Positions 7,889-57,778 of a stretch of DNA of 64,000 nt are shown one piece after another (positions within the stretch are counted from its first letter, which is position 1; every line of letters begins with the position of its first letter). The notes under the pieces were generated by a model. The model made no database searches. It was not told the origin of the DNA and saw only the letters and a program-made list of their open reading frames with translations. The stretch comes from Branchiostoma floridae (taxonomy: Eukaryota; Chordata; Leptocardii; Amphioxiformes; Branchiostomatidae). The stretch is from contig NC_049982.1 in assembly GCF_000003815.2 (NCBI RefSeq), forward strand, positions 19,658,953 through 19,722,952. The letters are read 5' to 3'. The translations under genes and the position numbers were made by a program.

Positions 7889-10800
7889 ACGACGACGACA
7901 GTGAAATGAATAAGCAACATGTACATGTCATGATATCTCCAACCAAAAGTAGCCGCGGACCATGTCATTGAATAACTGCTATACATGTAGTTGTAAACAG
8001 AGCTCGAATGTTGACATTATTGCTACCGTGGTTTCTGTGGCGTTTCAATCAAATGATACTTGATCACAATACGATTGTTTCCTCATTAACTATGCAAATT
8101 GTATCATAACTTGCACAATTTCTATCCTAAGATTGCAGAATTATTGTCTCATAAGTTCCATATGTCACAAAGGTAACATCTTATCAATCTTGCAAAAATT
8201 ACCATGTAAGAGACAGGCCAAATTGAATGAAAATTAATTCTACAATTGATAACTTCATTCATAAACTAACCAACAAGCGCACTGAAAACATAACCTGGTC
8301 GAAGGTATTAGTAATTCTGTACGTAAATTGGAAACAGTGAAACCAGTTCCTGGCACATTGCCGCTTGCTGTTTGTAGTCTCAACTGAGTCCCCCACACAC
8401 AGTGCACTCCGGCATTTACCTTCCCACGACATTTTGACCCGATGGTCAGTACGGGGCAAGCAAACACTTGCCAAATGGCAGGGACATCAGTTTGCTATTA
8501 CGATGTTTTTGCTACTTTCAAAGAGCTCGATGAGTTGTCTATATCAACCTGTTCTTTGATTTTCCAAAACATCCTGTTACAAGACAAGATTAATGTTCAG
8601 ATAGTGAGACATGGCTGCGCAAGTACAGCTACAACATGTAGATGGTTGCCTAGCGGATGAATAATGCACTGCAAATGCATAAGTATCGTCAATTCACCAT
8701 CACGATATAACTATTAAAGTATCGATTGTTTTTTAGTATTAAACGTCAATCGGTCATACAATAGTCCACGTGCGTAAAGATATCTTAGCTGACAAAGCAT
8801 TTTATTCGATCAGCTTTCGACAGGATAAACAATCACACCAAGAACACACAGCCTAGTGTACGTAGCTGTCAGCATGATGCAGAAGAGGACGCAAACGGTT
8901 CCCTGAGAATCTCTGCCCTGCAGTATAGGGCTCTTTAGCAGTCAGTTGTTCCTTGACCCACAGGTAGAGGGCGCTCGTGTCCGTTACCTCAAACTGTACG
9001 CACACTGTTAATCGGTTTGAAACTTATCACAATATCAGCTAGGGACTTGCAAATCCGAAAAAATGACGTTTTCGCTATATTGGACCAAAGCGGACCATGT
9101 GTAAAGGAGCTTTAAAAGTGTAGCGTTAGCTGACTACGGCTGTGAATAATTTTAATGCATTAGACCTAAGATTGATAGGGACTTGAAATCTTAACTTCTA
9201 CATCTGTAAAGACAAATGACTTTGAAGAATCTGGTACGTCATCACAAGACAATACTGTAGTTCTCAAAAGACCATAATTTAATCGTCAACAGGTTTACAG
9301 AGGAGGGTACTTCGTGGAAAAATACAAAACTTTTGTACAAGAACATACATAGTTGACAAATAGTTGCCATAGTACACATGAATGAACATGAGAAAATATA
9401 CTATAGACTCTTTTGCACTGATAATATGCAATCTCTCTAGAGATATGGCCAGCAAAATGACAGCCAATGGTGTGAAAAAGGCAGGTAGGTACACTCAACT
9501 CTTTTGCAATTACAATATTTACATTGACATATCTGCTTTTACAATTAGCCATAACAAGACTTAACAATAACTTCTACCGTACTATTCAACCTTAAAAAAA
9601 CATTAGAACAATCTCAATATCGTTAACAGTCCATATAGCTAAGCGAAGCGAGGATTGAATGGAATGTTCTTGTCAGACAATCAAATTCATCATTTCAGTG
9701 CTACACAATATAGAGAATAACCAGACACTTAAAACCCACTTCACCCTACAGGTCAAACTAGAACAATACTTGAAAAAGCAAAGAAAGCTGTGAGGGCTAG
9801 TGGGGGTTTTAACCCAAGATGAGTGTCATTACATCTCATTTTCCTCTTGGCCCCCTTATCTCAATGTGATTACATGACTGATTGTACAGTAATAACATCC
9901 AAGAGCGAACCCCAAACTGTAAAGCATAAATGGGGGTTGTAACCACCCCCTCCCTACACTCCAAGGGCTCCAGCTGTTTTTGGACTCTTTGTTTTGGCTT
10001 TCTATTCTTTTTCATGTCCGCTGGCTGAACATGAAAGACAAGGGGACAAAATAGAAAGCCATGTCAATACCAAAGAAACAACAACAGCCAGAGCCAAACC
10101 TCTGCTTGGAGAGTACCCCTCCCCACACCCTTCTTATCACAGTCAGCTATATCAGTATATGGGCAAGTTTTTCCATTATCAGACCAATCTTTTATCTCTG
10201 TCATTTGATAACAGAATAATAGGAACAAAGGATTTTTCTTATAAAGGTGGGTATAAAGTTGGAAATACATTACATTACATTGCTCTAAACTACAGCTATT
10301 AGTAACCTCTATTGAAGAATGGCCAACGACTATACAAATGTGCTACCTTTCTGATGAGACTTAGTTTACGGCACAACACTTTCATTGCAAAAATAAAGGT
10401 TCCCTGCTCTTTTCATTTATACATGCACAGCAGTACGTCATTTTGATAGACCTTAAGCACTAGTTACATGCATTCTGCAGGACTAACACTGACAAACTAT
10501 ATTGCTTATCAACATTACAACAGATGTTCCTCCAGCGGCCATTGCTATCAGCTCCTTTCTTACAAGTAGACAGCTAGGAACTCTGCAGTAAACATTGCAC
10601 AGTTACAAAAACAGACAGTGTGCATCACAAGTAAGTTTTCACTGCTATGGCACAAAATGGCAGACCCTCCATGGCCCTGTGACATAATTTCATAACTTTT
10701 TGAGACTTCCAGAACCTTAAGGTATTTTCAACAAATCTTTTCCTCTTTTCCTAAAGAAAATAAACTCCATCTGAGTGTTACATCAACTCATTATTCCACC

Positions 10801-12302: not shown

Positions 12303-15300
12303 TTATCTTCTCTCTCCTCTCCTCCTGCAACCTTGCTGGACAGACTTTCCCAGGACCACCATTTGCTGGAGGTAGTTGTGTGTCCTTTTAGACAGAGGTG
12401 AGCACAAGTCTTCCAGGCGGAGCTTCAAGCGCTCTACTTCAGTTGGCATCTGTTCCAGTGCCTGCAGATCTGACGATGACAAGCTGTGCTCCGTGAATGT
12501 AGAGGGTGTCATTCCTCTGGGGACGGAGGATGTGGGGTGGTGTTGACCTACACATGTAGGGAGAGGTAAAAGTATAAGTCAGTCGTACAGAAAAGAACTG
12601 TTTCATTCAATCGTAAAGACCAGAACGTTATTCTATCAATTAATAATCTTTTAATCATGATTCAAAAAGCTACTTCATAACATACAAAAAATCTACTGAT
12701 TTCATCTACGATTTGAAAGTCATTCCAAAACTACACACCATAAGTAGATGAACCTTCTCCTTGCTGCCTAAACCCATAACAAACAGAGAATTGGTGCTAG
12801 TAGCCAAATAGCTACAGTGTGTTTAAAGTCAAGCATGAATAAAAATTTCAAGATGTTTTGTCAGATAGTCTTACCCATCTTCACTCTGGTGTAGCTCTGA
12901 AGGATGAAGAACAACGACATGGCCAGTTCCTCGCACGCTTCCCTCACAGGCGCCATCTTGTCGTCCCCTACCTCCTCAACCTCCGCTAGTGCTCGTGGTT
13001 TGCACTTGAAGAAGGATCTGGTTATCTTGGTTACTGAGAGGGGCAGCCCCTGGGAGTAGTCATTGCACTGATTAAAGAACATCACCTCCAGGAACCTGTG
13101 ATGGCAGAGTTGTACAACATATTACATGTACTGAAACACTGTCATCCAGGCCTTTATACAGACATGCATACAGTATCGACTGGAGGTCAGGACTAGGCTT
13201 ATATATATATCACTCCATAGAACTCTATCTTACATTGCTAGTTCTAAGTTGACAAACTTGATACCAGAGTCTCTAGTTAAAGAGTCCGTAAAAGTCAAAC
13301 TTCTGCAATGTACCATAACCCGGCCATTTGGTTTCCATATTAGGAGAATGGATTAAGCTATTTCCTGCTTGGCTCCACAATAATGTCCCGCAAATTTTAC
13401 CCTTCGGTGAGTCAGCTTCTGAGATAGCCGTGGGAGACTTCCATAAACAGTTTTAAGAGTAGCATGTTGAGTCCAAGATATATTCTGTGCTCTGCGAAGA
13501 AAATTTGTGTAGGTCCCATCTAATCTGTTTTGGAGTTGGCAAGTAAGTGTCCAGGTTTCTGCACCAGCGTTCCCGCCAGGCATACGTCTTTACGTCTTTG
13601 GACGCATTTTTTTCTGGAAAGACGCACTCGGCTCGGCTGAATGCGTCCATAAAAAAATCTGAAAGAAAGGCTGACCTGTACCACCAGTGTACAAAATGTA
13701 TCTGGAATCTTTAAAAAAATCTGTCTTTATAAGAAGGAATCCTACCTTTACAATTCATACTTCAAATTCTTCACTTTCCGGTCATCCCAGTAGTCTGGGC
13801 ATGGGGCGGAGCGCGGCACGTTTTACAACTAGCGGACCCACGTGCGACACAGACTGCCACGCGCCAGTCTGAGCTGTCCATTGCGCAATGTAATTTTTTG
13901 TAGTCCGTGAATACATCTGACAGTCAGGATTCTTTAACACTGGAAGAAATCTTATGCAGATTTTATATTCTGATTTTAACATGATACTTACTTGTCCTCA
14001 TTTTCACGTATTTGTTAAAGATTTGTGGGCAATACTAGTATTGAACAAACTGTTCTGCGCGAGTGTTGCACATCTCAACAAATGTTCTCACGCCGTGGGC
14101 AGTTGATTGGCAGTCGGTATCTTTGACAACAGGCCGCCGGCGCCAAGCAGTCTAGATTGGCCACCAGGTCCAAATCCAATCATCTTTATAACCAATCAGC
14201 GTTTCATAAATGTAATGTTGTACTCTGTCATTGGTCACCAGGAAAAAACCAAAAGTTTCCGACGCACGTGACGTTGTTTTGTGATATTGGTAGCCGCCCG
14301 TGTCGTCTGGCAAGTTTCTTTCCTAGCTGCTAACAATTTACTATTAAAGTTTCCCCATTTATCCAAGTTAAAAAAGTGGTGCGCGGCAAATAAGTGAAGA
14401 ATCCAAAACTATAAACTTTATTTGTTATTTCCAAAATTTCTTTTGTTTCAAAAAGACAACATTTGTGGCAGAAATGGGGCCGCAATATTGTTGTCAAGTG
14501 TCGATCGAGTCGGCTGTGCACTGGCGTTGGCCTCCGTGGCACATGGCGCGGCACGCCCCCCTCCCCAGACGGACCGTCGATCGCAGCGCCAAGCACGTTG
14601 GACGTATTTCTGGCTACTGCTTCAATGCTACACCGGCACTGATCACTGCCAAAAAGGCAGCAGATCGTCCTCCTTCGAGTAATGTATAACGTTCTTGGTC
14701 TATTTAAAAAGAAATCCAGCCAAAGATTTCACGCCGAAAACAGGGTTACCTGAGGTCGCAGGAAACAAATGCACGCTCGTGGAAAATGACGGCGCGGCCT
14801 TGTAAAACCCCACCGATTCGAAAAATTTGAGTAAAATCATCGGGAAAAATTGAACAAAACACAAAGTGTGATGGCGTCGTTATTTTATCGTCTCGGAAAA
14901 CTATTTGATGCGGGAGGGCGCAACATCGATCGCACGAGGTAGACATTTTTTTATTCAATGACGGAAAAAATTGGCAGAATTTTTCCATGGGCTGACGAAC
15001 TGGCTAGAGCCCTGTTGCGAAGCATCAAAAATCCAAAATTTTCATGTCTGGACAAATTGTACCCGGGCCAGATCACGGAAGGCTGATTCCCTGTGCTTGT
15101 AGTTTTTTTTTTTTATATATATATATATATATAACGTATTTTTGGGGTTCGAGAGGGCGGTCGTCGATTACTGAATATCGGGAGTAGATATTAAAAGAGG
15201 CAACCAACAGCCAATGTCAAGCGCATGATTTTCCTCTCAAATTGCAGGAAATTGTGTTTTAGAGAGTTTGAAAATCCAAATTTTCCCGGGGGAGCATGCC

Positions 15301-18300
15301 CCCGGACCCCCCTAGAATGCGAGCGCCTGCGGAGCTCGTCTCGCGCCTCCGGCGCTCATTACGCCCCTCCCAAATATTTGGACGCATACTTTCAAGAACC
15401 TGGCGGGAACGCTGTTCTGCACCATACAACAGAAGAATAGGTTCCCACTAGTGAACACTTGGACCTTTAGTTTGTTAAGGATGTTAGACTTCCAGATTTT
15501 GTCCAATTAGATTTATGGGTACTTATGTTTACCGGTAGCTGACAAAATCTCTCTAAGTACTCTCCAAGCAGAGGTTGGTGGGAATAATTGTGACCTTTTC
15601 CATTCATAATTTTTTTCGACCGGCCTTCCTTGGTAAAGGAAAAGGTCATGATTTTTCCCACCAACCTCTGCTTGGAGAGTACCTTCTTGCTCAATATTTC
15701 ACACCACAGTTATACTAAATATTGGCAAATGAAAATCTGACATGTTTACAGACTTTGCTGGAGATGTTGCCCACGGAGTAAAGGAAACTCCAACCTTTGT
15801 TCACTTCAAAAACAACACATTTAGTAGAATGGAATTTTCAGTTTCAGTTAAGTTGAAGTCCTCTTAATTGGTACTTCGTTTCCACATTAGTCAGTAACAT
15901 TGTAGATGATGAGTAAGTCCACAGAGAGAGAACGGAGTATGTCTGCCTACCAGAGCCTGAGCTGGTGAGCTTGCATGGTCTGCAGCAGCATTCGACAGTC
16001 CCTCAGTCTGTAGAAGGGGTTAAAGGGCTTTGTTAACACATGAAAGAAAAATGGCATAAAACATTGTACTTTAAGGCTGCACAATAAAGACATACAAGCA
16101 ACCATGAGCTTTTTTTAGATGCTCCAAGAACCCTTAATACAAAAACCTAGCTCATATCCTAAAACACATATTTACCTGTACCCCATGTTTAAGTCCAGCT
16201 TTAATGCCAGTCCCAGTCAACTTCTCTTCCAAAACTCAGCTAAACCACATGTTCGATAAACTCTGAGCTAGCAATCTAGTTATGTAAGCCTTACACAATA
16301 TGGTGTATTATTAACCTACCTTGGCAAACAGATGTAAGAAGTAAGCAGCTCATTCCCCATCGTCCGACAGTCATTGTAAGGACTGTCACTGGCCTCCTCG
16401 ACTAATAGCAGCAGTTTCTGTAGAGATTGTAGGCATGATGGGGCATTCACCTGTGCGATGTTCCCAAACGACACTGTACGGCTGGCCCTACTTGAGGATT
16501 GAGACCTCTTCTTAGGAGTATTGCAACTGTTATCAGTGACTGTCAAGTGTTCTAGTTCTACAGAGTTAACAGTCCACCTGAGAATTTCCTCAACTTTTTG
16601 GTAATGTCTTTCGGAGGAAAACTGTCTCACTAGGGACTGCTGCTGAGACTTCAGATGTCTCCTAAGGTCATTCTCGCACAATTTCACCAGGTATTGCAGA
16701 GCATGAGCATTGTTGTAGAAAGACACAACATTCAAAGGTGCCGCAGATTCTTCTGTGAGACCTAGATTCTTGCACAGAGTTTGCAAAAGTGTCCAGAACC
16801 ATTTGGTATCAGATTCTGACTTGATCTCGAAGGGATGCAAATTCTGGACATGTTCAAGGACCTGAAATGCTTCTGATGTAATGGTCTCACTTTTACTTTT
16901 CAGAAGGATCTCCTTTATGATGAACTTTGTTGTGTCTGGTGAGTTTGCACGTAAACGGGTAGTGAAGGACTTTATCAGGTACAGATAGGCGTCATAATCT
17001 TCTGCATCCTCACAAGAGTTCAGCATGTTGGAGCGATGCTGACCAAATGTCTTCTTCTTCTTCTTGAGTGAGGACTGAGGCCTCGACACGGACGGACCAC
17101 AATCATTGGATAGTTTATAGTCTGTCATCAATGTCTGTGATTTCTTAGGTTCCATGACTTTTCTGGGCTTCCTTCTCCATTGCACGGGAGACTCTGCGCA
17201 ACTTCTTGTGCTGTCGCTAGTTCTTTCATCACACGGCTCCTTCTTGATGACAGGGACGGCCACACTAGATGTGGCAGATGGGAAATAGGCATCTATGATC
17301 TCTAGATCAGGTAGGTCATCACTGCTATACCTTTCTTTCACTGCTGGACAGTATGATATCAACTCCAGGTCAGGGAGTGCATCATCACTCATGTCTTTGG
17401 AGCTTATTCTGCCATCAGAGATAATAGCTGAATCCTCTTCTGACTCTGCCTGGCCTTTACTGCTGGTGTGATCATCACTGACCACTGCCACTGACTCCTT
17501 AGTATTGCCAACATGGGGCAAACGTTCCATTCCTTTGTCAACACTTCTTCTGAGTGTTTCCAGTGATGATGCAGCTTGTGTTTCAATAACAGAAGGTGGA
17601 TCTTCCAAGGAAAGCTGACACCTCCTTTTCTTTATTGCCTCCCGAACTGCATAGGTACAAGTAGATGACTCAGTAGATGTGTTGTTTCGGTTGGCTCTGG
17701 CTCCACCAACAGGGTTATCAGTGTCAGAGTCATCCGACAAAACTATGGGCTTTCTGTTACCCGACCTCTGGCGCTTTCTTGGTGTTGCCCAGTCACTCGA
17801 ATCTGAATCTGACACTCTTTGCCTTTTCATCAATTTAGCCTTGGGGCTGTGCCGAACAATTTCTTCCTCAGTAAGTCTCTTCAAGGCTACACGACAGTCC
17901 TTCATCTTGATGCAGTTTTCGTGGACACCATTCACAGTGGGGGTGCTCTGTTCTGTTGTGCCTACATTACCTCTGTGTTTTGTCGGAGTGGATAAGGATG
18001 GAGACCCACCACGGGATGACTTCCTCTTGCTTGGTGACTTGGATTTTGCAGAGCTAGACTTTTCCAACAGTTTAAAAGAGCCAGCCAAAGTTTTACTTGT
18101 TAGTTTGTGTGAGGAGACATCTTCTGTGCCACCTTCAATGTTTGTCATATTCGCTCTTTTCGTCGGGTTCTCATCTGACAGCCAGCCGTGAGACCCTTTT
18201 CCGCTGTCAGACAAGCAGCCACCTATAGACTTGGTACATACAGATGAAAACGTCCCTATGTAATCGCCTTGCAGTGAGAATGTTCCAGGTGGGAGATGAG

Positions 18301-21300
18301 AGGAGTCACTACCGTTTGGGGAGCAGGCCGTTCCATTCGGCAGATGAAGAATTGTACCTGCTACACCTGGGCGGAACTGCTGGTCGGTAGCCTGGGTCCT
18401 GTTGAAGTCCTGTGCAAACTAGAGTGAAGTACAGAGAAATAATTTATAAATGTTGGTGATTTACATGAATACGTAACTAAGCTCAAGCGTAGTCTATTGA
18501 CACACACATTCATAGCATATTCAACAAAAAGTTAAGATAAAACATTGTCTACGTGCGTCAATACAATGTAGTACATTTTGTATTCACAATGAGACTGCAT
18601 ATAGTATGTAAGCAAACACCCAATCCACATTCCAGGTAACGAATATGAATTACAGTGTGTATATGGAAAGAGAAACACTGCTGTTCAAACATTTTCCTCT
18701 GTCAAAACACTATCTTGTACATATATATCTTGGAATACAGATTTCAATATCTACAAGTGGTCATATGTTTTAGCCTGGATGCCAGACCAGGAGGTGAAAA
18801 GGAGTGCTTAGCTTTGGTTAGAGATGTCTTCACAGACAGGACATACTTTTTTAAGGAGAGCCACATCTTGAATAATTTTTATGTTAAAAATCACATCCAT
18901 TATCAAAAAGAGCAGGTGTCCTTCCAGGTGTGTGGATTAAACCTTACAGCCTGGTCTTATGCAGCTTGTACTTACTTAACTTACTGTACAAATTTGGTAA
19001 TATGCCTTAAGGCAGTTTATCAGCTATGCAAAACAACAAAATCCAATACAGACCAAGCCAGTTCCTTACAAGTTACAATAGGAGGACTGTATGCAGCAAA
19101 TTTGACAAGTCAGGATGAATGTTGTTACTGTTATTCATTGGTGAAAATGACTTGAATGTAAAATCGTCACATTTCTTGTCAAATGCCAATTGATATCAAA
19201 ATGACTTAAGGCTTCTTAAGAAAGTGGGCTTTCATAGCATTTTCTGATAATTTATGTAAGTGGGTCCTCATTTGCATATTGAATGTTCAATGATATTCAC
19301 CTGCACATAACTTCCAAATGGCACAAGAAATTCCCATCATTTACCGAAAGATTATAAAATTTTCTCATTAATCATGCAAATGAGGTCTTCATTTCCATAG
19401 TGTTTATCCATCAATGTTTTTCTCAGTTACAAATGTCACATGTTGGAATAGTCCTATAAATATATCATGGATGGAGACAAATCTCATGTTGTTGTACCAC
19501 AATAGGTTTTTAAGCTTATACTAACCTACACATGGTTGTCCGACTAATGTCGCAATCATGGGGACACATTTTGACCTATTGCAAGCCGTGTAGCAGATCT
19601 AAGGGATCCTAAGGATAAGGCACAGCAGAAACCATTTCATACAATAATGATCGGTCAAATTGGGCTATGAAAAACTTTTGTCTAAATTGGACCTAACGTA
19701 GCTTACCTTTGTTTGGGTAATTTTAAGGTAACTTTGTCTAGATTGGGCTGAAAGACCTACTCAGGTACTGGGGACTTAGACCTGGAATCTGTTCCACCTG
19801 TTGTGGCTTTGAAAATAAGTTGCTGCACAAATTTGGGTGTTGAACATAAAGTATATCAATGATTGAACCTCTTGACAAAGTACCCATCCATCTGTGAGCA
19901 CTCCTCTGTAAGAAAATAGGAACAGGGAGGGTCTCACCACTGTCTAGCCTGTGTTTACACAATCTCTTCTGGCTGGGGTTAATGGCCCCCTATGTGTCGG
20001 CATCTGTAGTGTAGGGCAAGCTGCTAGGAGCGTGATTTTAGTCAGGCTAACCATTGTCATGCCAGATTGTCATGACATACATGTATTGTGATTGTTGCTA
20101 GGACTCAATTTGCAATAGAAGGAAAATGAGTCATTTGTAGTGTTTACAGTTGAAACTCTATGCATACACAATGTACATACATGCATACCTGCAACAGGTA
20201 ACAACAAAAGAATACTTTTGACAGGTCATTTTGAAAGACAACATTGTTGCTAAGGTCAGATAATGGTACTATGTTTCTGCTAGTGGTAGTAAAACACCCT
20301 CCAAGTACAAAAGGTGAACTAAGTGGAAATACGAAATCCCTGTTCATGTTCTTGGCACGTTACTTTGCTACCTCGCCATTATAATTAGTATACACTAAAA
20401 TAAATCCAGACTAGAGGCCTGACACATGTTTATGAGCGTGCTCGAAAGCAAATTTGTACAATACATCTTCACAAAAATCCTGTCACATACAAGCAAGCCA
20501 TTTGGTAGTTACGTGCCATTGTCTGTTACCAGTACTCATGTTAATGCATTCACTGGCTGCAAAATAATGTAATGTGAATTGTGATACAGTTTTGTACTTA
20601 ACATGTTGGCATTGCTACAAAATACTCATTATGGGTAAAAATAATCATGGTAGCCATGGAATAGGGTTTCAAAAGGCTGTACCACTTAGCACTATTCACC
20701 TGGAGGCTATACTCCTTACAAAAAAAAAAAGTCCAGATATCATATTACTTTTGATATGGCGACTTGTTTGCCAATATACAGTGTATGGCTGTCCATATCT
20801 TTAGCTGACAAGAATTATTCTTTGAAGATACATGTATGTAGTTGTGGGGAACAAATTTGTAATACTGGTTCACCTTTATCTGGGGGTAACCTATATCCAT
20901 TGTTTTTAAAAAACAAGATGTATCAAGGAATGTCAAGTCGACGGTGGTTTCAAACTGCAATGTTTTGAAAATATCACAATTTTAAAACAACCGTTCTCGA
21001 CTTGATATTCCTGAATACCGTTTTCAAAAACAACGTATATAGGTAAACCAGCGTTAACTAAAGTGAGGTTTATGACTTCATTAATTCATGTGTTTCAAGA
21101 CACCTAAAATCTATCTACAATTTACAAGGAGCACATCCAAGATTCCTGGAGCACATGTGTGTGAGATATAATCAACAATTGACATGTCTCAGAACAAGTT
21201 TTACAAGCTTGTGACCTACATTGCATATTTCCAGACAACCTGACTACCAGCTAGCATAATTATATGAAACCTAGCATTTGTTGAACAGAGGTTGCTATCA

Positions 21301-24300
21301 GGAGGACAAGGCAAGTTTTACTGCCTTCTTGGATATTGCTACTAGTATATACGTCATATATTTCTGTACATACATAATTATAAAGTAAGGATTATAATAT
21401 ATCCCCAGGACTGTCGCCATTGCAGGATACACAATGCGTTCACTTCGGGTCTCTACACTATTCTGCTCTCATGATTCTTCAGAGCTTATGTACGTTGTAC
21501 CTTACTTGTCTAGACAACAATAAATTATGATTACACTGTATCATTAAATGCTGTTACCAAGATAACCCAGCCATTAAAATAACAATGACTGTTTGAAAGC
21601 AGACTACTGGATCATGGAGTCTGCTGCAGGTGTTAATAGATTAAAAGCAAATGGCTTCATGATGCATGGATGATATGTCAACTGACACCTGTTCCATACT
21701 CAAACTCAACATAGCCACATACACTATTCCTACAGGATTCATGCAAACTGTGAGAACATGGTGGGATAATTCGTAGGTGGCCCTTATAAGGAAGTGGTAT
21801 AACATAAGCATGTACCGGTAGATATGTTCACACGTGTAGGCAGGCAGGCTGCCCTATAGACAGTTGCAGGTATACTAACAAAGCAATCAAACTAACCGGT
21901 TCAGACAGCTGTTGCCCTCCCTGACCATTCCAAACAAGATGTGTCCAGCTCACCAAACAAGATGCACCTGATAGCAGACTTTGGTCAGCCAACATGCTCC
22001 ACAAAACACAATACACACTCCCCAGGGAATAGCAGAAGCTATTGTTTGGGGTCACATGATTCATTTGCATGGGCAGTGCCACCTGACTCTAGGTGATTGG
22101 TCCAGCAGGACCAGAATGATTGCATCATGGGGAAATACCTGTGAGGGTCTAGTAGGGAGCATTAACTGGGTGTTAAGGTCTGACCTAAAATGTACCATGC
22201 AAACAAAAGATCAGAATGTTTTATGATTTATAATCTAGCAGAGGTCCTACTGATCACACATAGTTTGATAACTTTATACTTATAGCAAAAAATACTAGCC
22301 TACATGTGTGACAAAATAAAAAAAAATAATTTCATACTACATTGTAAATGTATGTTGGTATCTTGTGTATGTTCTTACTGTTATATACTAAGAATCAGTC
22401 TTTTGATCATTCAAGTGGTTTCAACCCGAACATTGCGGTATATTCTTGACTTGTTTCACTTGGGTATTTTCCTCTCCTCAGCACTTCTGTTAATAACTAC
22501 CTGACAAGAAACATAACTGTGTGATGAATGGAGTATTTAAGCTGTGTTCATCTAATATACAATGTGCAACTTCTTCCTGTCAAACCACTTTTGTAACACT
22601 TGAATAAGCATGATATAAGCTTGAACTGCTAAAATACAGGGATGACAAGATCAGCTTGTGTAGTTAATATACTACTCTCACCTCTCAAATAGAAGTACCA
22701 CCTGGAATAAAAGTAACCCCCTCCCCCAGAAAATTACCAAATTGACATGTAAACTTGCTACTTCTGTCCAAGGAAAGGTGATAAGCAGGTAGGTTCTTTT
22801 TATTTGTTTATGCCTGAGTACCATATCAGTTAACTGTGTAAATAAGGAAGAGAATAACTAGACATATTTTGTTCGGTATACTTATTAATTTTTTTCCATT
22901 TTGTAATAAAAGTTGATATACAAAATAGATCTGATTTACAGTATCCGTAATTTTGAAAAATTGGGCAAAGATTCCCCGCTATTACCCCTTACCGGGGGCC
23001 AACGGTGCTTTCAAATTCAACAAGTGAAAATGTACACGATACTTGTGCATGTACATGCATTTTCTACTTGGAAATTGAAGCAAGTGATCATGGAAAATTG
23101 TTGTACAATATATTATCACTACTTAGTTTCTGACATTTTCTTTAGACATTACCCCCAACTGAAGCACATATTTACACCCAAAATGAGCAAAATATGGTTT
23201 TGTCCATTAACTCCTGTTCAAAAGTGCCGAAAACAAAGTTTTTGTGAGACGCTTCGATGCCAAGTTCCCGCAGTTCACACTGAACAGAGCATGCTGTAAA
23301 AGTAGCTCATCGTATTGAGGCCTCACATACTAATAACAACTAATATGTTACAGATTTCATGTCGACGCTAAAAACTGCTAAATTGAGAAAATGTTACAAT
23401 TATTTACGAAAATCAACACTCAAAATATACATGGCCGTCCGTGTCCATTGTCACCTCAATATAATATTTTTCACGCGCTCAATTTGGAAAAAAAAAATAA
23501 ACGTACTGATACGTTTATTTGAGAGGCGAGAGTACATACATCTCCTTTGGCTTATAATATACTGTACAACGTCCAGTAATCACATAAGCACAAAAAGTGT
23601 TATCAACTTAAATAAATGACAAAGATAACATCTTTATGCACATGGTAAATATGTATAATCAATCAATATATGGGCTAGCCATTATCGAACATCAAAGAAA
23701 TAGATTACATTTGGAAATAGTTATCTCTAATGAGGTATTTAGATATCCAGGTTATTGATTTTTGGCCCCAGGGGCCCTGAATTGTATCTAACACCATGAA
23801 AACCTCTTGTAGACCCTCCCTGACACATAATAACAGTGTCACAAGACACTGACGCATAGTACTATAAATAGTTGACATGGGGACGAACCAAAAAGACCTA
23901 CATGAGGGTATTGAAGTGAAAAAAAAAGGAAGTGGCAAAGTCTAAAATCTATCTATTTTCAACAAAACTGAATACTAGTATTAAAATCATTGCGAACAAA
24001 AAAGAATAAAAAGATTTATTGTATATGTCCCACTGACAAATAAGGTTTAATTGCAAACAAAACAGAATGAATGTTGAAAGTTGTCACAAGTAATGTGCTA
24101 AGTAGTCTACAAGCTAACACAATTAGTAACACTGGTATGTTATTGGGTCATACTTACAACATTCCCAAACAGTGGGAAGGAACAGATATGTCCCCTGAGT
24201 ACAACTGCCTCATGTTAACCCTCAAGACTCAGACATGTTGACATTTCAGATCGCTCAGGAATCAGTCGTGTTGATTTACAGGCCTTTCCAACCCATATAG

Positions 24301-27300
24301 GCTTAATAATGATTTGCGTCATGAGAACTAAACATGAGAAGGCTTGAGTGCTGATATTTCTAGGCCAAAATAACGGCTTGTTTTCAAACTGCAGATTACA
24401 CTTATGGTTATATCAGACAAGGTTCAAATTTCAAAATATACATTTTGCTGATGTACCTGCAAGACATAAATTTAACCTAAAATACTACCAAAATGCCACT
24501 TCCTCTGTCTATCTTTTTTGTCTCTCTTGTCCTACTAAAAACATTGTATCGCTATCATACATACCACGGATTAGACTCAGAGTGTAAGTGGGTTTCATAA
24601 TACTGCCACTGCCATGAAGAAACTTGGCACAATTAACTGCCACTACCTTTAAACATTAAAGCTGCATACAAAGTCATGAGAAAACAGACGTATACTGTCA
24701 AGAATTCTCAATTGACTTTGGCCTGTTAAAACCACGTAAAAATGATGTAAAAATTTACTGCTGGCGTAGCAAAAAAAATTGCGGGAATAAAATGGTGGCG
24801 TTCTAGTCTGTCCGTTCAACAGATCTGGGCTATTATGCAACAGTTCTTGACAATAGATCACACTTTTACACAAGTTGTAGGTCACCAACAGAAATTTGAA
24901 ATTGCTGTTGACTTATGCTCGTGTTGTTGTGAGCACGTGTGATTATTATCTATAAATCTGGCAATGAACATAATGTTAACAGTTATGTTTTTCCCATGAC
25001 CGCTGACCTGCCCCGAAAAAGAACTGAAACCTTTGACCTTGTTGTCTTCAAAAGCATCGTCATCGAGGCCTTTTTAAAAATGCGTTGAACACCAGGATGT
25101 CCGAAGTGTGCATACCTCGGAAATTACCTTGTACCTGGGTAACAATGCTGTCTCCCACAGGTGGCTATTAAAATTTAAAAGCAGATTTAGCAGCCCTATG
25201 TGCAAATCATTAAAGATTAAACTCTTTTTTTGTAGTTCTGTATAAAATGGAATATTCTTCCTGTCAAAATAGCAATGTTTTTATAGAACTGTTGCAATTG
25301 TCCTTAGTTACTATTAATTTCTGAACACAGGGAAAACACCTGCCTGTCATCTGAAGTAAAATAGACAGAATAGCTTTGATACACAGAAATGACTTACCAA
25401 ACATATATCTTGTCCAATATCCATACATATACATCCCCAAGTAAGAGGTTAACAAAAACTAGAGAGCACAAAAAATAATTCCAGTCCTCCTAAAACGTAT
25501 GCAATAGTAGTAAAGACAAGATGCTTCCTGGCCAATGTGAAAATGTGCAAATTACATGTAACTGTGTCAAGGCCATATGCTCCGGATCCATCAAAGCCAT
25601 AAACACGATGGCACAGCCAATACTTGTCCGTAGTATCTAGTACTGTGCATGTATAGTACTCAATCAGAGATTGACCTTGGCACCTATGAAATTTCTTCCC
25701 ATTCCATGATTTTTTACCGGTAGGTACACCACAAGTAGACATGTACATCATGGGCACATCAAACATAGCAGAATTGCAGAGGTGTTTCAGTAATGCTTTT
25801 GTATGCGATGATGGGGTGGTGTAAAGTGCATTTTACTTCAAGGGGAATCAGTGGTACAGATTTTAAAAAAAAACTTCAATGCAGAGATGTCAGATTGGGA
25901 CTTGTTAGGTTTGGCAAAATTTCCTTCACTAAGCTGTCAAAACAAAACCCAGAAAATGGTTTTGATATGTTGGAGGCATTCTAATAATCATACAACTAAT
26001 AAATGGCACACACAAGAGGCACGTATCCTCACCTTTAATGACTCTGCACATACTCTCTGTAGTATCAAATCTTCCTCCTCCAGGAGTTGTTTCTGAGCAT
26101 TGGCCTCTGCCTGTGACAACATTAGAGCCACTTCCAGGTCACTGTCAACCTCTTCCTCAGACTTCTTCACTGGAGATTTCAACACCTTGGGACTTGATGA
26201 TCCTTTGCCCTTTCCTTTGCCCTTTCCCTTGCCTTTATTTGGGGAGTGGAAGGTAAGGTGTGATGTGTCATTGCTGAAATTCTGGATTGCATCATTTGTT
26301 TGGTTCAAGGGCAAGGCAGGTGTGTCAGGATTGCACAAGGGCTCCACTGGGACCCCTTCATCACTTTCCCCATGGTTGACTGCTGTTTCTACCTTAGGTT
26401 TTGTCAAGTTTTCCCACATGGCACTGTCTGAAGAGGACTGTGAGCATGAAGCAATGAATGACTTACTAACACTGTTAGGAAGTCCACTTGGCCCAGCCAC
26501 TGCAGCCTCTGTGATGTTTCCATGACCTTGGGAAGTCTGCTGTTCTGCCCTTGACAGAGCAATGGCTTTGGCAAGGTCAGGGTCATCATCTGACTCTTGG
26601 GAACTGTCCCTGTTATGAACCAAATCTCCCAGAGACCTTTGAATTGCAATTCTCAGGGCTTCCTCCTCACTCATGCTCTCAAAGTGTGAATGCTCCTGAG
26701 ATGCCTTAATGGCAGCCTGAAATTCTTCATCTGAGTCTGCAAGACTAGGCTCCATCTTAAACACATCAGATTTCTCAGTAGACACCTGGTTGGTATGGTA
26801 ACTAAGTGTCCTGTCCTCCAGCTCTCCAGACACTGCATCTGGCCCTGAGCTGCTGGTACTGTTACCCATGCCTGTTTCCCTTCCTACACTCTCTGTTTTA
26901 CAACCAGGGCCACCCTCCTCTTTCAGACAGGTGAGTGTGGGGCTGGCTGAGATCCCATTGACAAGTGCCTGGTGGTCTTCAGGTTCATGTTCTGTCTTGA
27001 CAATTGGACTGGCACAACTTCTGGTACACAAGAGACCTAAAGAACAGTACACATATAATTAGATAGGGAAGAGTGCATGCAGCAAGCAAACTAGCAAGCA
27101 AACAAACTTGGGACAAAACATCCAAGCAAGAGCCTGAAGAGGATAGTAAAAGACAAGGCTTTAACACTGGGAAATGGTCATTCATGTAACTGCATAACAC
27201 TGCAACCTCTACTACAGTACTAAGATCTAGAGGATACCAGTTTGACCTGTTGACCTATATCAGTTTATGAATATGAAACAACCTTGTGGAAGGGTCTAGG

Positions 27301-30008
27301 CCTAAGGCCACAGCAAGTAAATTTCATGGATGACGTTACTAGTAGCATGCTCACTTTAACTTTTGCCAAATAAAAAATAAAAAATAAATAAAAATACCCT
27401 TTGCAGATGGTGAACATGACGATAAAATACATGAAGCTATGGCTGTAGTTATTGACACTTGGTGTCTGTTAAGGATGTCATCCATATAATTTATTTGCTG
27501 TGGCCTAATGTCAAACAAACAGAACAGCTCATTTCACAATGGGATGTTTTAGGACAACCCCCTGGACTTACCGATATTTCTTGAAGTTGGCTTGTAGCAA
27601 GAAATTTGCAGCAAGATCTTGCTGTCATGCACATCCAGGAAGCAGGTAAAAATTTTATTATGTGCTCATGGATGTTATCATAATACCAAGTTTATGTGAC
27701 CTAATAACCTTCAAGCCCTGCATGCTAATTCCAAACTGATATCTTACAAATGGAACTCCCTAGAATTTGACCCCATTTGCCCTCTCCTAAAATCACATAA
27801 CCAAAGCCAGTGTCAACTTCCAGGCTTTGGGGATGATAAGTCCTCTGGGTCTGCCAGTCTAGAATGGTGATCAGAATCTAAGAATGATTTGGGACCATGC
27901 CATTCCTGTGGACAATATGCCCTTGTCCACTTGGGTCCTGGCTATGATGGGGCCACATAGGAAATACCAGTATATCTGTGTTTGGATTCATATCATCCCT
28001 GGGGGCCTTATTTACATTTGATATGGTGTTCCAACTAGCCTTGAGTTTTATGGTCCAGCCCTGGGGCTCCATAATTTGATGAGAAAGAATCAAACTTGCT
28101 TGCATATGCCGCTGTTGAAAATTCGGAACAACTGTTTTCAAACCAAACTGGCAGACTTTAAGTTCTTTTGTTTGAATTGACATATAAAGTTGTTGATGCT
28201 ATGTTAACTTACAGTACACGTGCAGTCTATGTGCATTATTGTTGTGTCTTTTTCGCTATTTTTTTTTTTCAATAAACTTAAGTTTCCTTGGGTTGGCATG
28301 ATATAAATAAAACACACTGTATTCCGCATCCCCCCTTGTCACACAATAATCCCGTTCATGATTCTTCAAAGAGCAAAATTTGTACTCTCCAAGCAGAGGT
28401 CGAATCGCGCAGATATATAGTAGTAGTCGAAAAAATTACACTCGCGTATTTTTCGACTACTACTATATATCTGCACGATTCGACCTCTGCTTGGAGAGTA
28501 CAAAATTTGAGCTTGGTGACACCATTCTCATATGAACACGTACATTCCAGTTACCCTGAGTGACCCCCAGTGGAATCACTCCCACACCAATGATATGGTG
28601 CCACAGAAGGCCTCTTCTTGGATGGGGGCCAAGCAATTTGTCAACTGTCATGTGGAACCATGCAAAAATAACATAATCACCTCCATTTTGTTGAGTTAGG
28701 AAACAAGATTTGCATTGAATTTTGTAATGTCTATGCCCATGAAGCAATATAACACTGAACCAAAGGACACTTATACTATCACAACTTGGAACAGGCAGGG
28801 TGGCCGCTACAACTACAAGCAGCATAGAGGAGAAACTGACATTGATGTATCTCTCCTCTGACCTACTCACTGCCACTACTTCCCTCGAAACAGGTGTCTG
28901 TCCTCAGGCTGTGTCCCTCTTTTGACCTCCTTGCTCTGACAAACAACTTGGCACAACCCAACCATGAAAAATTGACAAGATTATGACAAGGCAGAAGACA
29001 TGCCTATACAAGCCATAAATCTAAGACATTTTTTTCAAACTCTTGTTTTAGACAATACCATAGATTGTCATTGGTCTCTGGTTGAAACTGGGGCCCTGCT
29101 CTACAGTCTAGGTTCTGACTTCTGAAGTTGTCAGGGAATCCTTACTTGGCTAGCATGAGTCCCTGTTTCTTGTGAAAAAGATTGGTTAGCCTGCTCTTTT
29201 GTTTCTAAATCATTGGCAAGGACAATGGGATTTTATGCACTGCTGAAAGCCCCATAAATATTCAAAGGACTGTCCGATTCACAAAACCTTTTCCATACAG
29301 AAGGTGAGAAGCACAATTGTTCCTTGAACTAAAAGACTTAGAAAGTGTGTCATCAGCATGTACCTAAGCTGTTTTAAATCAAACTTGCTCCTACTTGTGA
29401 TCATCTCACTACGCTGACAAAGTCCAAATCAGGATCACACAATCCCCTCAATTACTGATTAGTTTGATCCAGCACGGCAACGCAGGGGAATCCCCGGCTG
29501 CAACGGTTGCTGATTATAACCACGATTTTCTTCCACACTCTCCTAGTCCTTCTAATATCTCTCAACAATATTCGACAAAACAAACCAGCTAAGACAAATT
29601 ATAAACAGTTGCCAGTTTACCTTTAAGTGAGATCATGCTGAGTTATGTTTACATTTTTCGGCACACTCCCATTTATTTCACGGCACGTGCCCTGAAGAAT
29701 GACTGTGCCGCCAGTGTACAGCGGCATGGTTTACCTGCACTGTCAGCTTCCCTCTCACCACAGGTACGGTCATCACTGCTGTCTTCGTCTTCTGAGATGT
29801 ATATGGGGTCATCGGCATTAAGAACATGCAGAGTCTTCGCACGGCTCCCTGTCCGTCCGACACCGTGCCGGGAAGGACCGCGGGGCGACCGCGAGCGTGC
29901 TCGGGCACGTCGAGTCCTCGGGGTGAAGCTCGGCTTCTCGAACGCCTCCTCGTCTGAACTGATCGTGATCACTTCATCCCCTGATGAGAACGATATGGGC
30001 TGGCTCAT
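12303..30008 (-). CDS. SIMC1/SLF2-like: SLF2/SIMC1-like SMC5/6 recruitment factor with SIMs and UIMs
   Basis: Six minus-strand exons: 30008-29735, 27036-26033, 18418-16320, 16007-15951, 13095-12875, 12547-12303. Every junction agrees in phase, and the 3900-nt CDS encodes 1299 residues. Exon 1 carries SUMO-interaction motifs VITISSDEE (residues 13-21) and PIYISEDED (68-76). Exon 2 has four ubiquitin-interacting motifs with the Phi-x-x-Ala-x-x-x-Ser core, at residues 197-204, 219-226, 246-253 and 392-399. Exon 3 adds a basic, Ser-rich stretch, further SIM-like patches (PIVLSDDSD 650-658, DLELI near 777, DLEIID near 798) and, from about 898, an all-helical region continuing to the C terminus. 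That region resembles the FAM178/SLF2/SIMC1 Nse5/6-like domain. In vertebrates SLF2 and SIMC1 direct the SMC5/6 complex to lesions or viral/SUMO sites in the nucleus. The UIMs are not something I know from the vertebrate proteins. Joining exon 1 and exon 2 to exon 3 rests on phase and strand, not on a transcript. Confidence 0.78.
13565..15414. mobile_element. Possible transposon bounded by 16-bp inverted repeats
   Basis: CAGCGTTCCCGCCAGG at 13565-13580 recurs as its exact complement at 15399-15414. The 1.8-kb interior has an unusual base composition, with CG-rich blocks (about 13800-13870, 14510-14600, 15285-15370) and TTTGGACGCAT words near both ends. It occupies intron 4 of the SLF2/SIMC1-like gene. 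No intact transposase is seen; boundaries and class are tentative. Confidence 0.45.
15107..15132. repeat. Poly-T followed by (TA)n microsatellite
   Basis: A run of T (TTTTTTTTTT) followed by about ten AT dinucleotides, in intron 4 of the SLF2/SIMC1-like gene. Confidence 0.85.
15558..15681. mobile_element. MITE-like inverted repeat (TACTCTCCAAGCAGAGGT family)
   Basis: TACTCTCCAAGCAGAGGTTG at the left is mirrored by CAACCTCTGCTTGGAGAGTA at the right. The inner arms GGTGGGAATAATTGTGACC and GGTCATGATTTTTCCCACC extend the palindrome. It is 124 bp long, non-coding, and in intron 4 of the SLF2/SIMC1-like gene. Confidence 0.85.
18419..26032. other. Large intron 2 of the SLF2/SIMC1-like gene
   Basis: 7.6 kb with a splice acceptor CTCTAG on the 18419 side and a donor GTGAGG at 26032 (minus strand). 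The ORFs here (for example 18655-19155 and 22913-23299 plus, 25449-25766 minus) have no recognisable family, skewed AT-rich composition and no splice context, so I do not call them genes. It holds one TAGCCTG-type element at 19945-20049 and several poly-A runs. A small additional exon cannot be excluded. Confidence 0.6.
19945..20049. mobile_element. Small TIR element, TAGCCTG...CAGGCTA, copy 1
   Basis: Starts TAGCCTGTGTTTACACAATC, contains TTAATGGCCC and GCTGCTAGGAGCG, and ends TTTAGTCAGGCTA. The same succession of words occurs at 38897-39003. Termini TAGCCTG and CAGGCTA are inverted repeats. About 105 bp, non-coding. Confidence 0.7.
27037..29734. other. Intron 1 of the SLF2/SIMC1-like gene
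   Basis: A 2.7-kb intron with donor GTAAAC next to 29735 and acceptor TTCTTTAG next to 27036 on the minus strand. It contains a near-perfect MITE at 28383-28500 and an (AAATAAA)-rich run near 27365. No coding exon is supported. Confidence 0.6.
28383..28500. mobile_element. Near-perfect palindromic MITE
   Basis: A 118-bp element of two almost identical arms. The left begins TACTCTCCAAGCAGAGGTCG and the right ends CGACCTCTGCTTGGAGAGTA. The arms include GATATATAGTAGTAGTCGAA against TTCGACTACTACTATATATC, leaving only about 20 bases unpaired in the middle. It shares its termini with 15558-15681 and with the lone end at 10098-10115. High arm identity suggests recent activity. Confidence 0.92.
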
Positions 30009-30347
30009 ATCTCACCGGTCCAACTACCATATCCTCCAGGTTCAGGGAACAACAGCAACCGTTGAACATTCGAAAAAATCAGTTCCTGTCAGTTTCGGAG
30101 GGTCCGCCATGATGAAACAAACACTGCGCGCTGCATGAAGGGAAAAAAATTGGCGGGAACACAATGGCTGAACCCGGAAGTAAAAAATAACGACCTTAGC
30201 TAAGGTCACTAAGGGAGCGGCTGTCAGGTTTTCAGCAAAAAAATTCGATGATCGCATATTTTGGCATTTTAAAGGACATTGCCTGCAAGCTGGAATCATT
30301 GTAGGCATTTGGAAGGCTGGAGGAATTGGGACGGTGTCGGCTGAGAT
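30009..30347. promoter_or_regulatory. Divergent promoter between SLF2/SIMC1-like gene and HDAC
   Basis: The two start codons (minus at 30008, plus at 30348) are 339 bp apart. Within lie ATTGG (30149-30153, an inverted CCAAT box) fused to TTGGCGGGAA (30150-30159, E2F-like), CCGGAAGT (30174-30181, an ETS/GABP consensus) and a perfect 16-bp palindrome GACCTTAGCTAAGGTC (30192-30207). No TATA box is evident. CCAAT, E2F and ETS sites are common in TATA-less bidirectional promoters of genome-maintenance genes. Transcription start sites are not visible from sequence. Confidence 0.6.
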
Positions 30348-33300
30348 ATGTCAGAGTCGAAAAGGTAGGGGGGTTACGGAAGGGGCGCTCCGAGTTGACG
30401 ACACGGTTTCCCCAAAAATGGGGTTCCCGGTGGAACGCAGTTTGTTTTGGACCCCCCGCAGCCATGTCCCTCTCGGGGAGCCAAAGGCGCGCAAATTTGA
30501 TTTGCGTTTCATATTGTATGACCCTTCGCGATGGGAAGCTGGAAGATGGGAGAACATTTACAGACGTTGTGTGGAGGACATGATTATGCAAACTTCATTT
30601 TCTCAAATTTTACACGAAGGCGGAAATGACGTTCCTGATTACACCGGTGCACCTGCCACCAGTACCAGAAATGTTCCCGCCAGACGTAGACGTTTCCGTC
30701 AACTTTTACAGTCGCTAGCTGTAACATAAATTCAAAAAATATTTCACGGATGAATTAGTCAAATTATGTTGTGTAATTTTATTATAAGATTTTGTCATTT
30801 GTTAGTTGTAGCAAGGACGTTTTATCACATGTGATATAACGTTCTTGGTTGTAGCTAACCAGAAAATATTCTCAGTTATGATCCCGCGCTCAAAAATATC
30901 AACAATGCCATTAAATGGATGTTAGAGAGTTTTTTTATCATCTTGTTTCAAATTAAGATAATCAATAATCATGAAAGAGAACTTGGATTCCTCACTTTTT
31001 CATTCTCAAAATAGGTAAATGTTTCAGCAAGGAGCCTGATAAAAGCTCCTTGGTTTCAGGGGCTTCAGTAATTACATAAGTTGGTCCTCGGCTATAACAT
31101 TATAATGTCCTTGGTCTGAGTTTATAAAATCTTTACAAGGTGCAAAAGGAAACTTGATAATTAAGTGATATCATATGACATGTTGCAGAGCATACATGAC
31201 TTATTAAGCTGCACCATACTTTGGTTTGATAAAGCAGCTGTGGTTTGTTAATCTCCAAGCAGATCCTACGGTGCCATAAGATAGCATCAAAGCTGGCCGG
31301 CCAAAGGGAGTCAAATGGGCACCAGAGTGGGTTTGATACTATATTACGCCACCATGGATCTGCTTCGCTATTAGTGGTTTGTGTCTGTTTTGCAAATGGA
31401 ACTGTCTCTGTGCCTCTGCAACATATAATCCTCTATTCATCACCATTAGGAATGACCCCTCACCGCTACAACAGAAGAACTACAGAACAGGGCTTGTCTA
31501 CGATGAGCGAATGACACTTCATAAATGTAGCTTCGATCTGTAAGTACGTCTAGAATATTGTATTGAAATTTAAATTGAATAGAAAATAAAAACAGTTGTA
31601 CAGATGGTATGGTGGAGATCTATTTATTGAAGTGATAAACCTCGTGATTTATATTTCATGTTGCCATAGCATAGAGATTGTTGCTACTTAAACATGCATC
31701 AGTAACAAGGTGTAGTCAAGATGGGTCGTCCAATTGTGTCAGCTGCTGAGTTTCATGCTCATTTTGTTTCCATAGCAACCATGTGGAACATCCGGATCGA
31801 GTGTCCAAGATGTATGACTACCTGCAGGAGGAGGGGCTAGTGTCCAGGTGTGTCCGCATCATCGCTGGACCGGCCACAGAGGAGGTGGTCCTTCTTGTGC
31901 ACAGGTAAGAACTGCAGGGATCTCTTTTCTGGAGGAATTGCTCATTATTGTTACTACTAGAACACAAATTTCGAGGTGAGAAAATTCCTGTGTTGAATGA
32001 TAGTTAAAAACTTAAACATAGAACAGTAGCTATCTGCATCTATCATTGTAAGCATTCACCATTCATCTGATGAGATTTGATGCAACAGGTATGTGCAGAC
32101 TTGTTGGCAAAGGAGACTTGATGTGATGAAGCTTGGATTCAGGATAGTTGTGACCTATTTTTTTTTAATCGAATTGAATTTCTTTATTTCAGGTATACAA
32201 CCCATAGTAGAAGCCATACAAACATAAGAACAGGAACTACTGTAATTCCTGATTTTTTCAATGTACTGTTATGTTCACGGTTTTCACGGTGACGACTGTA
32301 ACGTGAACTTATCATTATTGATAAGAAATAAATCGCAGACTTTTTTCCTGCGCACTTGCCTCGACAGTGAACATTTAGTTCCGAGAACAAGTTAAATTTT
32401 CTCAGACTGTGAAAGTTTGGTACCGAGAAGACAAAGTGAATTACAGTATGCACACAACAATTATACACATTAAAAAAAAAAAGAATTTCTAAACTGACAA
32501 TCTGACCTCAGAAGACCTTGTATAATAACTCCAAAAAGTAGTTACTCAAGCAACTGGATATGGTTTTGAAAAGGTCAGACGTTTCGGATAGAATCCACTA
32601 TCCAGTATGTCTTCATTCATAGTTAGAGTATAAAAGACCTGTTTCTTCCAGATCACTTCAGTGTCACTGACGAAGGATAGTGGATTCTATCCGAAACGTC
32701 TGACCGTTTCAAAATCATATCCAGTTGCTTGAGTAACTACTTTTTGGTGTATCTTATTACCTGGATGTCTAACCTACATCGACGTATCTTGTATAATACT
32801 ATTACTGGTGTTATATAGCCTGTTAATGAAGGAATAGAATGTCTTTCTGCATCTTGCATCGTGTCTGTAGTGAGGTGAAGTCAATCATAGAGCTTGCACT
32901 ACAGCCTCTTGGAAACTTACGAAGTATCCAAAAACTATTCATAGTGCTGATTTTTTTTATCATACATACTGCTTCCTTCCTGCACAGCCCAGAGTACATT
33001 GCCCAAGTCCAAGCCTGGCAGAAGGAAGCTGAGGTGGATCCAAACCAGAACCCTTGCAAACTGGAGGAGGGAAGCCCCACCTACCTGAGCCCTCATGTGT
33101 ACAGCTGTGCCATGTTGGCGGTGGGCTGTGCCATCAAACTGGTGGAAGCTGTTCTTCAGGGGGAGGTGGACAACGGGCTTGCTATTATCAGGTTGGATCA
33201 TTTGTACCTTCAAGATTCATGTCCAAAATGTATTAGTCTAGGCGATTGGTACAATATATAGCTAGAATTGCTCAAAATGTGGTAAAAGCATGAAACTTGG

Positions 33301-57696: not shown

Positions 57697-57778
57697 GTTG
57701 CAGCCAAATCTTCATTATATCTTTTGATTCAGACAGAATGCTTTAAATGTTGAAAATGATATAGAGGAGCAAAGCTAT

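Follow-up and report, generated by a model that had tools for sequence, protein, structure and literature searches.

The window (the whole stretch of Branchiostoma floridae DNA analyzed here, 64 kb) carries on its minus strand six predicted exons, which join into a single frame of 1299 amino acids, which begins with an ATG at 30008 and ends with a stop codon at 12303. All exon joins have GT/AG borders, with out-phases 1, 0, 2, 2, and 1, which bears out the phase-compatible six-exon model of the initial annotation; judging by its sequence, the locus is a real gene, probably a single one, and its exons were probably assembled correctly in that model. The predicted exons and the motifs within them are, in gene order:

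29735..30008, minus strand: exon 1, with the start codon and the SIM-containing N-terminus, residues 1-91, phase 1 out (frame, GT donor, codon score)
29946..29972, minus strand: SIM 1, VITISSDEE, residues 13-21 (good pattern)
29781..29831, minus strand: weaker second SIM candidates, LHVLNADD (60, by pattern) or IYISEDED (69, by eye), residues 60-76
26033..27036, minus strand: exon 2, the UIM exon, residues 92-426, phase 1 in, phase 0 out (frame, codon score)
26693..26728, minus strand: UIM1, EEFQAAIKASQE, residues 195-206 (core pattern; no Pfam match)
26627..26665, minus strand: UIM2, EEALRIAIQRSLG, residues 216-228 (core pattern; UIM_2 at 14.8 bits, under the cut-off of 21)
26543..26584, minus strand: UIM3, DPDLAKAIALSRAE, residues 243-256 (Pfam UIM at 26.2 bits as a 30-aa piece, above the cut-off of 21)
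26105..26143, minus strand: UIM4, SDLEVALMLSQAE, residues 390-402 (core pattern; no Pfam match)
26033..26074, minus strand: degenerate fifth UIM candidate, EDLILQRVCAESLK, residues 413-426 (spacing; no Pfam match)
16320..18418, minus strand: exon 3, with further SIM-like patterns followed by the start of the Nse5-like helical domain (residue 897, 17008)
17279..17749, minus strand: internal SIM-like PIVLSDDSD (650), VAVVSDDH (736), LELISYCP (777), and LEIIDAYFP (798) (mostly by eye)
15951..16007, minus strand: exon 4, Nse5-like domain, 57 nt (frame, SIMC1 match)
12875..13095, minus strand: exon 5, Nse5-like domain (frame, SIMC1 match)
12303..12547, minus strand: exon 6 and the stop codon (frame)

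The family assignment comes from the C-terminus. According to phmmer, the C-terminal 403 residues are similar to human SIMC1 (7t5p_A; E 1.6e-15, residues 27-331 of 403), with 29% identity over the matched segment, and by this similarity the locus is a SIMC1 homologue with an Nse5-like C-terminus. The initial annotation had described a FAM178-type C-terminus and had connected the protein with SMC5/6. The connection survives via the SIMC1 match, whereas the FAM178 profile (CANIN/FAM178, PF14816) is absent from both the spliced protein and the C-terminal domain up to E 10, a limit that is nominal, as HMMER filters drop most matches above about E 0.1. The SIMC1-type domain appears to be present in a single copy: three matches, a count to be read as a lower bound, were found and scored in the genome, all of them at the present locus. 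In a Pfam scan of the spliced gene model zinc-finger families are absent, and the single-sequence AlphaFold prediction for the exon 3 part of the Nse5-like domain is poor (pLDDT 46.8).

The N-terminal arm preceding this domain begins with the putative SIMs. Of the two proposed initially, the first, VITISSDEE, follows the pattern well, while the second, either LHVLNADD or IYISEDED, is weaker. Across the protein, the acid-flanked SIM pattern matches seven times, including three times (1003, 1095, 1096) within the helical domain, and hence such patterns carry little information. When exon 1 is compared with the N-terminus of human SIMC1, the score is equalled or exceeded by 127 of 1000 shuffles; as the similarity is not significant, exon 1 is tied to SIMC1 by architecture alone.

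The UIM core was scanned for as phi-x-x-A-phi-x-x-S with at least two acidic residues among the five preceding ones. Four cores, at residues 197, 219, 246, and 392, are found, all within exon 2, and this number is beyond chance: when the exon 2 protein was shuffled 200,000 times, two cores occurred in 58 cases, three in one, and four in none, and shuffling the whole protein 20,000 times never yielded more than two. In the six frames of the entire window there are five such motifs, including the four of exon 2. The degenerate fifth candidate, LQRVCAES (residues 417-424), has Val in place of Ala and Cys at the next hydrophobic position, and the use of a second in-frame donor of exon 2, at 26054, would remove part of it. 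Searched against the genome, exon 2 has one strong match, namely itself. In PDB, phmmer finds 19 sequences for this exon, of which 18 are DNMT1 chains, with alignments that, as shown, fall on the Gly-Lys repeat present in exon 2; the remaining one is a weak match (E 0.096) of the stretch with UIM2 and UIM3 to chain 4xkh_E of ZFAND2B, which we take to be the tandem-UIM peptide of that protein.

UIM4 and the fifth candidate resemble the UIM pair of RAP80 (UIMC1), which reads hybrid SUMO-ubiquitin chains through a SIM followed by two UIMs (PMC7692841; PMC12751080). The Ser residues of the two are 25 residues apart, which is the RAP80 spacing; an ungapped comparison with UIM1-UIM2 of RAP80, with the RAP80 letters checked against 2rr9, gives a score of 56, equalled by one of 2000 shuffles; and a 48-residue piece containing both is predicted by AlphaFold, from the single sequence, to form one helix (residues 7-47, pLDDT 92.7). 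As the peptide is acidic and helix-prone, the predicted continuous helix is mild support for a RAP80-like pair.

This resemblance may also be read as the trace of two neighboring genes on the same strand, where exons 1-2 would be all or the 5' part of a small SIM-UIM gene of the RAP80 type, and exons 3-6 would be SIMC1 with its first exons unseen in the 7.6 kb of intron 2. The 5' half of RAP80 likewise places a SIM ahead of the UIMs (PMC7692841), and intron 2 is not only long, but also contains four polyA-like signals on the strand of the gene. Nevertheless, we consider two genes unlikely: a zinc-finger pattern has no matches in the minus-strand frames of intron 2, no AIR-like frame was seen there by eye, and the best codon score in this intron is near zero. 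The phmmer search of UIM4-5 against PDB (E up to 10) also returns nothing, including no RAP80 chain. Retention of intron 2 adds 14 further residues, with a stop at codon 441, and such a read-through product is a possible short SIM-UIM isoform; skipping of exon 2 breaks the frame, with a stop at codon 128. The genome yielded no separate RAP80, although the searches for it are weak: the RAP80_UIM profile (PF18282) has no matches in the protein, in the UIM pieces, or in the genome, with the 14 control genomes being equally empty, and human RAP80 pieces match only twice, at E 3.4 and 7.8, both times in the later, zinc-finger-bearing part of the query.

Coding signal around the exon 2-exon 3 link points the same way. 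When exon 3 is excluded from the training of the codon score, its frame is the best of three from about 18400 onward, and a polypyrimidine acceptor of phase 0 before 18418 adjoins the start of this signal. As exon 3 is coding up to a phase-0 acceptor, an upstream coding exon with a phase-0 end is expected, and exon 2 is such an exon. With a training set made up of exon 3, one SLF2 exon, and the 57728-63433 frame, but not exon 2, the latter receives +96.4 bits over 334 codons, and the weaker exon 1 receives +15.8 bits over 91 codons; exon 3 itself starts with 87 codons that score about 0, although it belonged to that training set. In introns 1, 2, and 4 there are 102 ORFs with 35 or more codons, and the best of them scores +7.1, a low value that is partly built in, as these introns doubled as the background set, whereas the high score of exon 2 is not. 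The 7.6 kb between exons 2 and 3 contain no other convincing exon in the minus-strand frames by codon score. Thus, the frame, the codon bias, and the absence of a rival exon favor one gene, in which exon 2 would be spliced to exon 3.

Even in a single gene, the UIM-like stretches might be weak or functionless, that is, helices that arose by chance in an acidic arm, in which case the SIMs alone would target SMC5/6, in the manner of human SIMC1. Pfam is indeed more reserved about the four canonical cores of the initial annotation than the pattern that bears them out: the UIM cut-off is passed by UIM3 only, and as a fragment at that (18.8 bits in the whole protein), while UIM1, UIM4, and the fifth candidate have no Pfam matches either as pieces or in the whole protein. 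However, all four cores have the Ala and Ser residues and the acidic lead, they make up four of the five six-frame motifs of the window, and four in one exon were not reproduced by any of the shuffles. Taking this into account, we regard functionless UIMs as quite improbable.

The same genome also allows us to place the gene relative to the other SMC5/6 cofactors. In the assembly that holds the window, the CANIN profile matches once, at C4:13,198,494, on the contig of the window and some 6.5 Mb away from it. A joined piece from this SLF2 locus (C4, about 13.19-13.20 Mb) matches both CANIN (2.8e-16) and human SLF2 (7t5p_B; E 3.3e-8); a second piece, of 45 residues, matched nothing. As the only CANIN match of the genome lies there and none lies here, the identity of the present locus as SLF2/FAM178 is ruled out.

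For SLF1, the human tandem-BRCT query matches two adjacent exons on contig C11 (E 7.0e-13 and 0.002), at a locus whose coding pieces comprise a BRCT tandem, helical segments, and ankyrin repeats. When the BRCT pieces are joined, they match SLF1 (8ir2, 1.9e-35) and, slightly better, TopBP1 (4.7e-37), yet TopBP1 has a separate gene of its own at C4:6.26-6.28 Mb and the ankyrin repeats fit SLF1, and therefore we read the C11 locus as an SLF1 homologue. Profile PF23294, used as an SLF1 probe on the genome, found only TopBP1, while the joined SLF1 pieces do match it, demonstrating that an exon-by-exon genome search easily misses a gene; the absence of SLF1 suggested by this probe is ruled out by the BRCT query match on C11.

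According to these matches, SIMC1, SLF2, and the SLF1 homologue are three separate genes here. This refutes the initially proposed single pre-duplication SLF2/SIMC1 protein, the more so as SIMC1 and SLF2 are the Nse5-like and Nse6-like halves of one heterodimer, with SLF1 as an alternative Nse5-like partner of SLF2, in the human study (PMC9708086). An ancestral SLF2/SIMC1 (FAM178) protein replacing the RAD18-SLF1 relay is hence hardly tenable: its C-terminus is truly of the SMC5/6-cofactor type, but it has no CANIN match, and both SLF2 and SLF1 are encoded elsewhere in the genome. With the SLF1 homologue retaining tandem BRCT and ankyrin repeats, the suggested bypass of that relay is not supported either, and direct reading of ubiquitin by SIMC1 would be an addition to it. 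What stands of the earlier picture is a SIMC1-type protein joining SIMs and UIMs, which is the best reading, and not the idea of one SLF2/SIMC1 family.

We put at about 0.7 the probability that the locus is one gene, a SIMC1 homologue, whose Nse5-like domain would act with SLF2 on SMC6, and whose arm with SIMs and four to five UIMs would bring SMC5/6 to doubly marked chromatin or DNA. By analogy with the human protein, the most likely partner of the C-terminal Nse5-like domain is SLF2, whose gene lies elsewhere on the contig, and the SIMC1-SLF2 pair would dock on SMC6, the neck of which is contacted by SIMC1-SLF2 (PMC12656486). The long N-terminal arm could bind SUMO by its SIMs and ubiquitin by its UIMs simultaneously, and SMC5/6 might in this way be brought to chromatin or DNA bearing both modifications, as RAP80 brings BRCA1-A to hybrid chains. 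Several weak sites on one arm would favor multiply tagged targets, similarly to RAP80 on hybrid chains (PMC7692841; PMC12751080).

Comparison with known proteins shows how this architecture is composed. With human SIMC1 (C5orf25; 7T5P), the amphioxus protein shares the Nse5-like C-terminus, the N-terminal SIM patterns, the long N-terminal arm, and an SLF2 gene as the likely partner; it differs in the predicted UIM array of the arm and in the SIM itself, VITI here versus FIDL and VIDL in human SIMC1 (PMC9708086). The term UIM does not occur in the two searched main texts on human SIMC1 (PMC9708086; PMC12656486). RAP80 has the same order, an N-terminal SIM followed by UIMs, and the same spacing in the UIM4-5 pair, but the present protein shows neither an AIR (by eye) nor zinc fingers and carries an Nse5-like domain instead, and hence it would recruit SMC5/6 rather than BRCA1-A. 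Tandem BRCT and ankyrin repeats belong to SLF1, and on the coding strand of the amphioxus SLF1 gene (6,874,090-6,884,222) the UIM core scan is empty, its two matches lying on the opposite strand or about 5 kb upstream. SLF2/FAM178A (CANIN, Nse6-like) is a partner in the same complex, yet a member of a different family, as CANIN is absent here.

A UIM array placed between the SIM exon and the Nse5-like domain of a SIMC1 homologue thus appears to be new, as we found it nowhere described. Similarly, the initial annotation knew of no description of UIMs in this family, and none was found for SIMC1, SLF2, or Nse5 in the accessible parts of the literature searched, mostly outside subscription journals. 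SIMC1 and the UIMs of RAP80 are both mentioned in one paper, but in separate sections.

A more tentative extension concerns linkage. The K63 selectivity of RAP80 is due to the rigid helix between its two UIMs (PMC7692841), and it is possible that the present protein is an Nse5-type loader reading both SUMO and K63-linked ubiquitin in one polypeptide, by a RAP80-like UIM pair and three further UIMs, and that it directs SMC5/6 to hybrid chains produced by SUMO-targeted ubiquitin ligases. It has been proposed from human work that SUMO is read by SIMC1, and other, ubiquitin-linked marks by SLF1 (PMC9708086; PMC12656486). If the above is true, vertebrates have split the reading, SIMC1 being responsible for SUMO, SLF1-RAD18 for ubiquitin, and RAP80 for hybrid chains on behalf of BRCA1-A. 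The field still lacks an answer to how SMC5/6 is directed to DNA that is damaged or foreign; a SIMC1 naturally equipped with UIMs would demonstrate that a single loader is able to read the two signals, and it would provide a ready test protein for the recruitment of SMC5/6 by hybrid chains.

Finally, the two Nse5-like proteins of the genome can be compared with each other. SIMC1 and SLF1 have been named distant paralogues in human work based on structure and SLF2 binding, SLF1 being described in that study as devoid of sequence-detectable Nse5-like regions (PMC9708086). Here, BLASTP of SIMC1 against SLF1 yields only a 15-residue block with nine identical residues (E 0.001, for this single comparison). 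However, hhalign of a two-row SIMC1 alignment against the SLF1 pieces of the same genome (joined by eye) gives a score of 38.6 over 123 columns of the Nse5-like domain (P 9e-5, probability 59%), a value reached by none of 200 shuffles (the best one having 24.8), with 12.7 for the reversed sequence. This distant similarity provides sequence-level support for the paralogy of SIMC1 and SLF1, previously argued from structure and SLF2 binding.

Both SLF1 and SIMC1 of B. floridae contain a common sequence block (AYQVLKQVQTLHP vs. AFQVLEHVQNLHP), and the hhalign match between them spans 123 columns; together, these observations provide sequence-level support for the paralogy of SLF1 and SIMC1. The regions concerned are:

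L015, the SLF1 locus (G000:C11:6,874,001-6,884,000), and window 16832-17008.

Two other loci of the same assembly contain open frames:

L019:1033-2253 (G000:C1, about 8.49 Mb), long frame of 406 codons
L010:2710-3693, minus strand, frame with a tandem repeat at the TopBP1 locus

The 406-codon frame has two UIM-like stretches, QQVLELSRKE and AVRLAVQRSI, preceded by an acidic SIM-like stretch; its similarity to exon 2 of the SIMC1 gene, the UIM exon, is weak (E 0.3), and its Pfam UIM score is just 10.2 bits (cut-off, 21 bits). At the TopBP1 locus, a BRCT-like stretch is followed by an 18-residue unit repeated about 12 times in tandem with hardly any variation; this array may be either real coding sequence or an intronic satellite.

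Three features of the window lie 5' of the SIMC1 start codon or in the first intron of the gene:

32830-34817, plus strand (opposite to SIMC1), exons of a histone deacetylase gene
30042-30110, minus strand, upstream ORF of 22 codons, MADPPKLTGTDFFECSTVAVVP
about 27816-27941, minus strand, 42-codon frame in intron 1, distinguished by codon score

The histone deacetylase and SIMC1 genes are arranged head to head, and therefore a promoter region near 30.1-30.5 kb may be common to both. The upstream ORF stops 33 bases 5' of the SIMC1 start codon. The 42-codon frame, whose coding-like score (+7.1 bits) is the highest among 102 intron ORFs, is a possible alternative exon.

The far end of the window contains a homeodomain frame:

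57728-63436, plus strand, 1902 codons in a single open frame, homeodomain matches

The homeodomain matches come from Pfam (4.9e-14); several zinc-finger-like stretches are seen by eye, the Pfam C2H2 match being sub-threshold.

Finally, repeats were found in two SIMC1 introns and at one separate position:

15557-15682, intron 4, inverted repeat with 48-nt arms
28369-28514, intron 1, inverted repeat with 66-nt arms
10099-10115, one lone copy of the repeat end

The stretch TACTCTCCAAGCAGAGG, common to both inverted repeats, occurs in the window in five exact copies vs. 0.02 expected (the expectation allowing up to two mismatches), and the intronic repeats look like small inverted-repeat (MITE-like) elements.
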